From assembly GCA_947500435.1 (NCBI GenBank), contig CANMRV010000003.1, positions 124,001-188,000 of the forward strand: a DNA stretch of 64,000 nucleotides. The letters run 5' to 3'. Positions within the stretch are counted from its first letter, which is position 1. The number at the start of each line of letters is the position of its first letter. Position numbers and translations under genes: made by a program. The stretch is from an uncultured Flavobacteriaceae bacterium. Lineage in GTDB: Bacteria; Bacteroidota; Bacteroidia; Flavobacteriales; Flavobacteriaceae. Positions 1,063 to 4,642 of the stretch are shown piece after piece. Under the pieces are notes generated by a model. It searched no databases and was not told where the DNA came from. It saw only the letters and a list, made by a program, of their open reading frames with translations.

Positions 1063-1671
1063 ATGGCTTTTGAACTACCAAAATTACCCTATGCCTATGA
1101 TGCATTGGAACCACATATTGATGCAAGAACGATGGAGATTCACCATACCAAACATCATAATGGATATACTTCAAAATTAAACGCTGCAATAGAAGGAACT
1201 GATTTAGCAGGAAAATCGATAGAGGATATTTTATCGAATTTAGATATGTCTAACGGAGCTGTCAGAAATAACGGAGGTGGATTTTTCAACCACTCCTTGT
1301 TTTGGAGTGTTATGTCACCCGACGGTGGAGGTTCTCCTTCTGGTGAATTAGCTGATGCTATTAATGATGCTTTCGGTTCTTTTGAGGAATTTAAGAGTAA
1401 ATTCAGTACTGCTGCCGGAACTAGATTTGGTTCAGGTTGGGCTTGGCTCTGTGTGCACCCGGGTGGTAAAGTTGAAGTTTGCTCTTCACCAAATCAAGAT
1501 AACTCATTGATGCCAGGAGTTGGTTGTGGCGGTCGTCCTATTTTAGGCTTAGATGTTTGGGAACACGCATACTATCTTAACTATCAGAATAGAAGACCAG
1601 ATTATGTTAGTGCTTTTTTCAATGTTATCAATTGGGATAAAGTAGCCGAATTGTATAGCGCACATAAATAG
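1063..1671 (+). CDS. Fe/Mn superoxide dismutase
   Basis: The protein has 202 residues, the normal length for the Fe/Mn-SOD family, which converts superoxide to oxygen and hydrogen peroxide in the cytoplasm. All four metal ligands are visible: His27 (MEIHHTKHH), His77 (NHSLFW), Asp164 and His168 (DVWEHAYY). The Gly-rich [11 protein letters not shown] segment, without the Gln typical of Fe-SOD at that place, and [18 protein letters not shown] favour a Mn or cambialistic enzyme, but metal preference cannot be settled from sequence. It is a single-gene unit with its own -7 promoter box and a perfect terminator hairpin after the stop. Confidence 0.96.
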
Positions 1672-1739: not shown

Positions 1740-1749
1740 GGTCTGAACT

Positions 1750-1827
1750 AAAAATAGAAAAGGGCGGAGAAGTCTCCACCCTTTTCGTCCCAAATCTTAC
1801 CATAAACTTAACCTACTTATGCTATGG
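1750..1827 (-). ncRNA. Predicted small RNA, array copy 1
   Basis: On the minus strand the block starts CCATAGCATAAGTAGGTTAA, continues through a conserved GTAAGATTTGGG segment and ends in hairpin GGGTGGAGA/TCTCCGCCC with A and T flanks, ending TATTTTTAG. The CCATA start can pair with TATGG about 20 bases on. The hairpin differs from the other copies but stays paired. The upstream -7 box is TAATTTAG, weaker than in copies 2 and 3. Confidence 0.6.
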
Positions 1828-1832
1828 CAGTA

Positions 1833-1840
1833 CTAAATTA
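1833..1840 (-). promoter_or_regulatory. -7-like box of small-RNA copy 1
   Basis: TAATTTAG on the minus strand differs by one base from TAnnTTTG and sits exactly five bases before CCATAGC, the same spacing as in all intact copies. No TTG element is found at the -33 position. Confidence 0.4.
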
Positions 1841-1956
1841 CTGGTATTGCGTTAAATAAAAAAGAAATTTTGGTATTTTTTAAGAGCTTTATTTATCACT
1901 AAAGGCGTAAGAATTAACTTAAAAGTGAGGTTAACCTTGTTAAATACTGGGGGTTT

Positions 1957-2032
1957 CAAATAAAAAAGGCAGAGCAATGCTCCACCTTTTTTCCCCAAAT
2001 CTTACCATGAACTTAACCTACTTATGCTATGG
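1957..2032 (-). ncRNA. Predicted small RNA, array copy 2
   Basis: It has the same layout as copy 1: CCATAGCATAAGTAGGTTAA, then GTTCATGGTAAGATTTGGGG, then hairpin GGTGGAGC-ATT-GCTCTGCC inside A6/T6 flanks. The stem contains a G-T wobble relative to copy 3. The loop ATT is shared with copy 3. Confidence 0.68.
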
Positions 2033-2037
2033 TTCTT

Positions 2038-2045
2038 CAAAAATA
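2038..2045 (-). promoter_or_regulatory. -7 box of small-RNA copy 2
   Basis: TATTTTTG on the minus strand is a full match to TAnnTTTG, five bases before the predicted RNA start, with the same AAGAA spacer as copy 3. Confidence 0.55.
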
Positions 2046-2175
2046 TAGTGATTATTCGACCTTTTAAAAGGTTTTAGATGAACTTCCAAGAAGTTGGGTT
2101 GAAATGCATTTTATCGATAAGAGTCCTACAAATCGATTCAAACCAAGGGTAATTTTCTTGAAATTATTAAAAATT

Positions 2176-2242
2176 AAAACCAGAGCAATGCTTCGACCCT
2201 CCCCTCCCAAATGGTATCATGAAGCTGAGATATTTAGTATGG
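2176..2242 (-). pseudogene. Decayed copy of the small-RNA unit
   Basis: The stretch aligns along its length with the other units (plus strand: CAGAGCAATGCT, then CCCAAATGGTATCATGAA, then TAGTATGGCG), but many positions differ. The terminator stem no longer pairs well and no TAnnTTTG box stands at the conserved spacing. It keeps the register of the array, so it is best read as a unit that has lost function. Confidence 0.6.
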
Positions 2243-2352
2243 CGATTATATACAAACTAAAAAAAGATCTTAAAGTGAACCTCTTTCTATGCATCGCTTT
2301 AATTAACGCTGGGCCAAATTGAAATTAAATCTAATGCTTGAGGGTTTTTTGG

Positions 2353-2426
2353 AAAATAAAAAGGCGGAGCAATGCTCCGCCTTTTTCCCCAAATCTTACC
2401 ATGAACTTAACCTACTTATGCTATGG
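2353..2426 (-). ncRNA. Predicted small RNA, array copy 3 (best conserved)
   Basis: The minus strand reads CCATAGCATAAGTAGGTTAA, GTTCATGGTAAGATTTGGGG, then a perfect 13-bp hairpin (2358-2386) AAAAAGGCGGAGC-ATT-GCTCCGCCTTTTT. This copy has the only clear two-part promoter in the array, so it is the one most likely to be expressed. Confidence 0.72.
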
Positions 2427-2431
2427 TTCTT

Positions 2432-2460
2432 CAAAAGTAAAGTAGCTCTGTCAATCTCAA
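2432..2460 (-). promoter_or_regulatory. Two-part promoter of small-RNA copy 3
   Basis: On the minus strand TTG (2458-2460) is followed after 18 bases by TACTTTTG (2432-2439), matching the Bacteroidota -33 TTG / -7 TAnnTTTG arrangement. The predicted RNA begins about six bases downstream. Confidence 0.65.
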
Positions 2461-2562
2461 AAACTTCTTTGTTGAAGTTCTTATAATTCGGATGAAGTGT
2501 ATTTTGGAGTTTTTGAAAAGAATCGTAAACCTACTTAGTCTAATAGAATCTGGCTTTTTCGG

Positions 2563-2638
2563 AAAATAAAAAAGGTGGAGAAGTCTCCACCTTTTTTGCC
2601 CCAAATCTTACCATGAACTTAACCTACTTATGCTATGG
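2563..2638 (-). ncRNA. Predicted small RNA, array copy 4
   Basis: It has the same conserved 5' block, followed by a hairpin (2568-2597) with arms AAAAAAGGTGGAGA and TCTCCACCTTTTTT. Compared with copy 3, paired positions on both arms have changed together (C-G to T-A), which indicates selection for pairing. It lies about 100 bases downstream of purF on the same strand. Confidence 0.68.
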
Positions 2639-2643
2639 CGAGT

Positions 2644-2651
2644 CTAAAATA
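2644..2651 (-). promoter_or_regulatory. -7-like box of small-RNA copy 4
   Basis: TATTTTAG on the minus strand has one mismatch to TAnnTTTG and lies five bases before CCATAGC, as in the other copies. Confidence 0.4.
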
Positions 2652-2743: not shown

Positions 2744-4642
2744 TTAATAAGCCCGCTCGTTTTTGCCTTCGTAGAAATTAATAAATGCACGATTGACCAC
2801 GCGATTTCCCCCTGCTGTCGGGTAGTTTCCGGTGAAATACCAATCTCCTAAATTCTTAGGACAGGCTTGGTGAAGGTTTTCAATGGTTTGATAGATTATT
2901 TCAACTTCGGCCTTAATATCCTTAGGACTTAATAATTCGCCGCTTTTCTTGGAAATTTCATCCGCGGTAAAGGGAGCATAGAACTCCTTTACATAATTAA
3001 TAACCTCGGGATCTTTTGTATTGATTTGAGTTAAACATTTATTATAAATGTCTTCTACAATATCTAGGGTGCCTCTATCTTTATGCAAATCGAGTGCGGC
3101 CCTAAAGGCAATAAAATCTTCAAGCTTGGCCATATCAATGCCATAACAATCGGGGTAGCGAATTTGTGGAGCTGAGGAAACGACGATTATTTTCTTAGGC
3201 GATAGTCGATCAAGAATACGAAGAATACTTTTCTTAAGTGTGGTACCTCTTACAATACTATCATCAATGATGACCAAGTTGTCCCCTTCATCAACTGAAC
3301 CATATGAGATATCGTAAACATGCGCTACTAAATCATCACGACTATCATCTTGTGTGATAAAGGTCCTCAGCTTCGCATCTTTAATGGCTACTTTCTCTAT
3401 TCTAGGTCGGACCTCTAAAATCTCATGAAGCTCTTCGCTTGTAATTTTTGAACCGATAGAAAGAATTTGTTCTTCCTTTTTCTTGTTCAAATAGTTTTGA
3501 GCTTCCTTGACCATTCCGAAGAAGGAAGTCTCCGCTGTATTTGGAATATAAGAGAAAACAGTTTTCTTGATATTGTGGTCAATAGCGTCCAAAATTTTTG
3601 GAAAAATGAGCTTTCCAAGTTCTTTACGTTCTTGATAGATTTCTTTGTCGCTTCCGCGGGAAAAATAGATGCGTTCAAAAGAACAAGCTTTTCTTTCCGT
3701 AGGTTCAAGAACTTGTTTCAAAGAAGTACTTCCGTCTTTTTTAATGATAAAGGCGTGACCGGGATCCAATTCGTGTACCTCATCATAGGAAACATTAAAA
3801 ACAGTTTGAATTGCTGGTCTTTCGGATGCAACAACTGCCACCTCATCATCTTGATAATAATAGGCAGGGCGGATTCCCGCAGGGTCTCTTAACACGAAGG
3901 CATCGCCGTGACCTAATAAACCGGCCATGGCATAACCGCCATCAAAGTTCTTAGCTGCCCTTCTAAGTATTTTAGCAACTTTGAGACGTTCTGCAATTAA
4001 GGGTGAAGCTTCCTGTTTGTTATACCCTTCTTTTTTAATCTGTTTATATAACTTGGCAACGGCGTCATCTAAGAAGTGACCAATCTTTTCCATCACGGTA
4101 ACGGTGTCCGCCATTTCCTTAGGGTGTTGCCCCAATTGTACTAAGTTGTCAAAAAGCTCATGTACGTTGGTCATATTAAAGTTACCCGCCATGATAAGAT
4201 TTCTGTGCATCCAATTGTTTTGCCGCAAGAATGGATGTACACTTTCAATACTATTCTTTCCGAAAGTGCCATATCGGACATGTCCTAAAAGCAACTCCCC
4301 GATATATGGAATATTCTTTTTTTGCAAAGCCACGTCACCTGCGTACTCAGGGTTTTGTTCCATTTCAGTATTGATTCGATCATTGATTTGAGCGAAAATA
4401 TCTTGAATAGGTTGCTGCTGACTTGACCGTACACGACTCATATATCGTTCTCCAGCATTCATATCTAATTTGATACTTGCAAAACCGGCACCATCTTGAC
4501 CCCGATTGTGCTGCTTCTCCATCATCAAATACATTTTGTTAACTCCGTAGAAAGCTGTACCATATTTTTCTTTATAGTACTCTAGGGGTTTTAACAATCG
4601 TATTACCGATATACCACATTCATGTTTGATAGCGTCGCTCAT
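2744..4642 (-). CDS. purF: Amidophosphoribosyltransferase (class II, long Bacteroidota form)
   Basis: The 632-residue protein makes phosphoribosylamine from PRPP and glutamine, the first step of purine synthesis. The N-terminus MSDAIKHECGISVIR places the nucleophile Cys9 behind a short propeptide, as in N-terminal-nucleophile glutamine amidotransferases. NRGQDGAG and a LLGHVRYGT segment follow. The C-terminal phosphoribosyltransferase half has the PRPP loop VIIDDSIVRGTT near residue 464. It is longer than the E. coli enzyme (about 505 residues), which is typical of the flavobacterial form. A terminator separates it from the upstream kinase gene, so it probably has its own promoter. Confidence 0.93.
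   Translation of the reverse strand: MSDAIKHECGISVIRLLKPLEYYKEKYGTAFYGVNKMYLMMEKQHNRGQDGAGFASIKLDMNAGERYMSRVRSSQQQPIQDIFAQINDRINTEMEQNPEYAGDVALQKKNIPYIGELLLGHVRYGTFGKNSIESVHPFLRQNNWMHRNLIMAGNFNMTNVHELFDNLVQLGQHPKEMADTVTVMEKIGHFLDDAVAKLYKQIKKEGYNKQEASPLIAERLKVAKILRRAAKNFDGGYAMAGLLGHGDAFVLRDPAGIRPAYYYQDDEVAVVASERPAIQTVFNVSYDEVHELDPGHAFIIKKDGSTSLKQVLEPTERKACSFERIYFSRGSDKEIYQERKELGKLIFPKILDAIDHNIKKTVFSYIPNTAETSFFGMVKEAQNYLNKKKEEQILSIGSKITSEELHEILEVRPRIEKVAIKDAKLRTFITQDDSRDDLVAHVYDISYGSVDEGDNLVIIDDSIVRGTTLKKSILRILDRLSPKKIIVVSSAPQIRYPDCYGIDMAKLEDFIAFRAALDLHKDRGTLDIVEDIYNKCLTQINTKDPEVINYVKEFYAPFTADEISKKSGELLSPKDIKAEVEIIYQTIENLHQACPKNLGDWYFTGNYPTAGGNRVVNRAFINFYEGKNERAY

Follow-up and report, generated by a model that had tools for sequence, protein, structure and literature searches.

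What is encoded by a block of DNA that recurs on one strand of the gap between sod and purF in an uncultured member of the Flavobacteriaceae, a family of major marine polysaccharide degraders that also includes fish pathogens? An earlier, sequence-only reading of the window (the whole 64,000-nt stretch analysed here) had claimed four intact minus-strand copies of about 75 bases in this gap. These are present, as four ~75-nt units with 5' ends at exactly the positions then proposed (2638, 2426, 2032 and 1827). Our sequence analysis makes it likely that they are four self-standing genes for one ~75-nt trans-acting small RNA (sRNA) that would clamp the translation starts of surface-protein mRNAs, and that this RNA is a core feature of the family. 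Gene architecture, conservation, synteny and enrichment of matching sites could be read directly from the sequences, and the layout of the locus is as follows.

1063 to 1671, plus strand: sod, superoxide dismutase of the Fe/Mn type, the conserved convergent neighbour (ORF and synteny)
1699 to 1736, no strand assigned: perfect 19-bp inverted repeat with A/T flanks (repeat search)
1750 to 1827, minus strand: sRNA copy 1, the sod-proximal subtype with U at position 24 and a GGGA tail end (covariance model R1, 94.2 bits)
1955 to 2032, minus strand: sRNA copy 2 (sequence and fold; R1, 101.2 bits)
about 2165 to 2245, minus strand: a fifth, decayed copy flanked by copies 3 and 2 (partial block similarity, repeat family D3)
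2350 to 2426, minus strand: sRNA copy 3 (sequence and fold; R1, 97.5 bits)
2562 to 2638, minus strand: sRNA copy 4, purF-proximal, with 5' hairpin, single-stranded linker and terminator (sequence and fold)
2744 to 4642, minus strand: purF, amidophosphoribosyltransferase, the conserved upstream neighbour on the same strand (ORF and synteny)

Positions 1–39 are identical in the four copies save for one C/T difference at position 24, the common sequence being CCATAGCATAAGTAGGTTAAGTT(C/T)ATGGTAAGATTTGGG, a core that contains CATAAGTAGGTTAAG; among the four, T at position 24 and a tract ending in GGGA occur only in the sod-proximal copy. After the shared core, each unit has a different GC-rich hairpin followed by a T-run. 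Copy 4, at C3:126561-126638 of its own genome, scored 99 bits against model R1. All four units fold into a 5' hairpin and a strong terminator hairpin, with energy z-scores of −2.7 to −4.1, and a hairpin followed by a T-rich tail was found in 409 of 411 copies from relatives. Across these relatives the core is near-invariant and the terminators vary freely in sequence but not in form, in line with the earlier claim of an invariant 5' half joined to variable terminator halves. In the model-fitted alignment, pairing was kept with changes on both sides at six pairs, versus 0.4 in shuffles, and changes on both sides were also seen in the conserved CCAU/AUGG 5' hairpin. The decayed fifth copy, which retains remnants of linker and terminator and folds no better than its own shuffles, indicates that the array has lost units as well as gained them. 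A second short core remnant, AACCTACTTAGTCTA on the plus strand (2528–2542), lies in the spacer that separates copy 4 from copy 3, and the inverted repeat next to sod is a probable two-way terminator separating that gene from the array.

Each unit is preceded by a box of the form TAnnTT(T/A)G which, as had been claimed from the letters, in all four cases ends exactly five bases before the CCATAG of the predicted 5' end:

1833 to 1840, minus strand: −7 box TAATTTAG of copy 1
2038 to 2045, minus strand: −7 box TATTTTTG of copy 2
2432 to 2439, minus strand: −7 box TACTTTTG of copy 3
2644 to 2651, minus strand: −7 box TATTTTAG of copy 4

These assignments were made from the sequence and from position-specific conservation in 412 distinct copies from relatives, in 72% of which TAnnTT(T/A)G occupies precisely −13 to −6, as against 0–0.5% at five control offsets in the same copies. 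The TTG noted further up in copy 3 was likewise confirmed, with 18 nt between it and the box.

A search with a 33-nt core pattern located it in each of the 14 other genomes of the same genus and in several other genera. With the covariance model, 318 of 400 Flavobacteriaceae genomes and 195 of 237 genera proved to carry the RNA, at one to seven copies per carrier genome. Named carriers include Zobellia, Maribacter, Cellulophaga, Flagellimonas, Robiginitalea, Winogradskyella, Aquimarina, Formosa, Christiangramia and Flavobacterium, while the other families of the order that were sampled with the model yielded only two marginal matches, with E above 0.001. Judged from these genomes, the RNA is both family-wide and family-limited, a core feature of Flavobacteriaceae. 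In the own genome, one further weak model match at C7:291632 (32.9 bits, E = 0.001) was taken as chance, and viral contigs, in which an exact core match was looked for, contained none. Synteny was assessed at 118 named loci, with neighbours beyond the ends of the 8-kb pieces scored as missing: purF is directly upstream on the same strand in 102, a convergent sod is downstream in 93, and purF and/or sod occur in the same orientation in 114. At L102, L111, L137 and L164, possibly second loci or ends of stored pieces, neither gene was found beside the copy. Conservation across 195 genera, together with the promoter and terminator statistics, strongly supports the proposal of the sequence-only reading that this is a multicopy small-RNA locus with promoters and terminators of Bacteroidota type.

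These data bear on what else the array could be. A functionless dispersed repeat or mobile element (REP- or MITE-like), an alternative that the same reading had raised against itself, retains next to no probability: several similar copies and a decayed one would suit it, but exact matches to the 14-mer CATAAGTAGGTTAA occur in the 4.92-Mb own genome at these four places only, so that there the block is not a dispersed repeat, and the usual synteny across the family, the absence of a match in viral contigs and the positional conservation of promoters and terminators argue against it more widely. It is also very unlikely that the array belongs, as a variant, to an RNA family already described. 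Flavo-1 RNA and 6S-Flavo RNA are flavobacterial noncoding RNAs with entries in Rfam; neither reached its gathering score in the window, and the suggested link to Flavo-1 was thus not upheld. More generally, a search of the whole window with Rfam 15 gave no match at gathering score, and a permissive scan gave only sub-threshold, chance-like matches. FopS (RF04319) resembles the array in its layout of seed plus terminator and gave a weak covariance match on copy 4, but at 19.8 bits (E = 2.9) this is far from the gathering cutoff of 56 bits. FopS is a multicopy paralogous sRNA family of Bacteroides thetaiotaomicron that pairs at the start codons of SusC mRNAs and represses their translation (PMC11697453). 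Like it, the array comprises near-identical paralogs of a Bacteroidota sRNA with their own promoters (sigma-ABfr in FopS, sigma-A type in the array) and terminators, and its RNA is predicted to pair at the start codons of surface-protein mRNAs. The two differ in that FopS has one single-stranded 5' seed and no 5' hairpin, whereas the array RNA has a conserved 5' hairpin and presents a hairpin seed and a tail seed; in that FopS has 14 copies and the array RNA one to seven, as a rule in a tandem array at a single conserved locus; and in that FopS targets SusC and the array RNA, by prediction, adhesins or lipoproteins. Model score and 5' structure place the array RNA outside FopS; it would work like its Bacteroides counterpart without being a member of that family. 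A question of novelty rather than of function is whether the RNA already appears, under another name, among the 85 new Rfp transcripts reported for F. psychrophilum (PMC9723704), possibly as Rfp18, for which there is a small but real chance and which would be compatible with the sRNA reading preferred here. The model matches nearly every sampled genome of g147, taken to be Flavobacterium, and named Flavobacterium loci carry the RNA; Rfp18, for its part, affects metalloproteases and is conserved in the genus, and its predicted pairing partners are the mRNAs of secreted proteases and of a secreted adhesin (PMC9723704). However, Rfp18 is described as pairing through a third stem-loop, where one array unit has two, and the main text of that paper does not mention a multicopy or tandem purF–sod RNA.

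Tandem or multicopy sibling sRNAs have been named in other phyla, among them the Neisseria siblings, Vibrio Qrr and Listeria LhrC (PMC11697453). The likeness to the array lies in several near-identical copies, a shared seed and the control of lifestyle genes. These siblings belong to other hosts and their sequences are unrelated to that of the array RNA, and to our knowledge no sibling sRNA has a two-part start-codon clamp or the target class proposed below. Our literature searches turned up neither a purF–sod sRNA nor SprB-type adhesins under sRNA control.

If the array encodes a trans-acting sRNA, which part of it would recognize targets? The sequence-only reading had tentatively assigned this role to the invariant 5' half, and the complementarities found there support it. 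The hairpin-loop segment CAUAAGUAGG is perfectly complementary to CCUACUUAUG, AUG included, and the single-stranded tail AGAUUUGGGG is complementary to a CCCAA-type tract 5' of CCUACUUAUG, both predicted to fall on translation starts of secreted-protein mRNAs. The corresponding seeds map as follows.

1812 to 1821, 2017 to 2026 and 2411 to 2420, minus strand: seed 1 in the other copies, same sequence as in copy 4
2599 to 2608, minus strand: seed 2 of copy 4, AGATTTGGGG, spanning RNA positions 31–40 in the single-stranded tail; complements CCCAA(ATC) tracts upstream of target starts
2623 to 2632, minus strand: seed 1 of copy 4, CATAAGTAGG, spanning RNA positions 7–16 on the loop side of the 5' hairpin; complements start sites of the form CCTACTTATG

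CATAAGTAGG is the perfect complement of CCTACTTATG, and equivalents of seed 2 are present in the other copies. Own promoter, intrinsic terminator and a conserved seed complementary to the translation starts of several mRNAs, features among those by which trans-acting base-pairing sRNAs are classed, are found here. A Shine-Dalgarno mimic was also considered, as AAGUAGGU resembles AAGGAGGU, and was rejected by reasoning, because almost every copy keeps the mismatching U and pairing of this kind is not what the phylum depends on.

Start sites were examined in Candidatus Arcticimaribacter forsetii (G640), whose complete 2.03-Mb genome has one RNA copy. Two of the three best duplexes in its ranking put the start codon inside CCTACTTATG, with CCCAA upstream opposite UUUGGG. 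Duplex energy alone, over all starts of this genome, was no better than that of shuffled sRNAs, and we therefore ran sequence- and position-specific tests, the energy ranking being used solely to suggest the CCTACTTATG register, which was tested separately afterwards. The real CCTACTT gave 2 matches before gene-start ATGs, compared to a mean of 0.14 over 140 permutations, one of which reached or exceeded the real count; when the tail tract was also required, the real CCTACTT was the best of all permutations. SusC mRNAs, the main targets that analogy with FopS would suggest, were not retained as such: two SusC-like starts of this genome have suggestive partial matches to the sRNA, and SusC starts were not enriched by energy.

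For the wider comparison we used the bipartite pattern CCCAA-N2-15-CCTACTTATG, whose gap limit leaves out the antisense strand of the sRNA genes themselves. It occurred 77 times in 301 Flavobacteriaceae genomes; reversing the pattern gave 17 occurrences and permuting the tail tract gave 19. In other families of the order (about 207 genomes) there were 11, versus 9 for the control. Every one of the 62 genomes that contain the site is a carrier of the RNA, which makes 62 of 243 carriers and none of 58 non-carriers (Fisher p = 3e-7), a comparison between related, non-independent genomes in which those lacking the RNA tend to be smaller. Some of the matches are not start codons, and the restriction of the exact site to a quarter of RNA-bearing genomes points to targets with imperfect sites or to other functions. 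Likely orthologs in different genera both keep the site in some pairs (for example L390/L401, L398/L408 and L391/L417), with orthology judged by eye. Outside the array, the own genome contains CCTACTTATG ten times, and in seven instances it holds the start codon of an ORF; six of these seven ORFs begin with a signal sequence or lipobox. Tail pairing, which played no part in picking these seven starts, was better there than at G640 starts (combined p = 3e-4), and six of the seven are predicted to form a two-part duplex over the AUG.

The proteins read at these sites are largely of one kind. A signal-like N-terminus was found in 22 of 30 ORFs of at least 45 aa, compared to 29% of all G640 genes, by a crude predictor applied with the same rule to both, and most sites at real starts appear to belong to secreted proteins, namely large adhesins of a type that the type IX secretion system exports, and lipoproteins. 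Domains encoded by the predicted targets include SprB repeat, CHU_C-associated Ig_7, Big_9, cadherin-like, laminin G, choice-of-anchor and CBM96/DNRLRE domains and the T9SS sorting tail, and lipoprotein genes are also among them. One predicted target in the own genome (L426, 1–1503, minus strand; C3 at about 272.9 kb), with its start codon in CCTACTTATG, codes for a gliding-type adhesin with SprB repeats. A bipartite site was also seen in two genera at the start of a 75-aa divergent 4Fe-4S protein (Fer4_19; L396, 1279–1503, minus strand, and L415, 1519–1743, plus strand), which looks cytosolic and does not fit the surface-protein class.

Two other explanations of these sites must be set against pairing. 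In one, improbable in our estimation, the RNA acts mainly by binding and titrating a protein, in the manner of CsrB or 6S RNA, and its match to start sites is of secondary importance. That hundreds of species keep a 39-nt core invariant is more than a 10-nt seed calls for, the copies are redundant, and one Bacteroidota sRNA family does bind an RRM protein, RbpB (PMC11697453). Yet a copy has no repeated protein-binding motif within it, and two separate segments of the RNA match conserved start-codon sites that track its presence. The other explanation, which we hold to be quite improbable, takes CCTACTTATG and the upstream CCCAA for a transcription or translation signal of surface-protein genes that has nothing to do with the RNA. 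It would account for the clustering of sites in one functional class with A-rich leaders, but not readily for a motif that exactly complements two RNA segments, is not enriched in families without the RNA and, in its bipartite form, is absent from the 58 sampled Flavobacteriaceae genomes that lack it; moreover, the 2 to 15 nt between the half-sites is unlike the spacing of a protein site.

In the start-codon clamp that we favour, each gene would be transcribed from its own sigma-A type promoter to its intrinsic terminator, giving an RNA that presents CAUAAGUAGG on the 5' hairpin and its loop, and AGAUUUGGGG single-stranded between this hairpin and the terminator. Both segments would together clamp the translation initiation region, the loop-side segment pairing over the AUG of a start codon lying in CCUACUUAUG and the tail segment pairing with the CCCAA-type tract upstream, while the 3' strand of the stem, between the two, would be looped out; the 2–15 nt spacing in targets would fit such a flexible clamp. 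Bacteroidota largely initiate translation without Shine-Dalgarno pairing, so that occupation of the AUG and the A-rich leader would block initiation, with repression as the expected sign. From sequence we infer expression, pairing in the cell, repression and a physiological cue, and the RNA probably represses surface-protein translation. We lean towards the broader view that a core regulatory RNA, carried by about 80% of Flavobacteriaceae genomes and without a name in Rfam, exerts global control over the translation of secreted surface proteins, gliding-type SprB-repeat adhesins among them, by a two-part start-codon clamp. Post-transcriptional control of surface adhesins and lipoproteins in this family is little understood so far. 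If the proposal is true, most genera would share a regulator whose gene position, promoter, seeds and concrete target list are in hand, making it testable in few experiments, and it would be a clear example of an sRNA that finds start codons without reliance on Shine-Dalgarno pairing.

Several copies would probably supply dose, and different conserved upstream elements would probably supply different inducing signals. Beyond the −7 box, the 412 copies conserve TT at −50/−49, an A-tract and TTTT at −37 to −34, which define these elements:

2066 to 2081 (about −49 to −34), minus strand: upstream element TCATCTAAAACCTTTT of copy 2
2460 to 2475 (about −49 to −34), minus strand: upstream element TCAACAAAGAAGTTTT of copy 3

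Both are candidate binding sites of an activator. The −49 to −34 region of some relatives' copies reads CATCTAAAA. As a separate observation, the upstream element of copies 2 and 3 resembles TTTCATCTAAAA in many genera. A promoter block of its own, CAATACCAGTAATTTAG (1833–1862), precedes the sod-proximal copy; this block is conserved across related genera, differs from the TCAAC/TCATC-type elements upstream of copies 2 and 3, and may place the copy under separate regulation.
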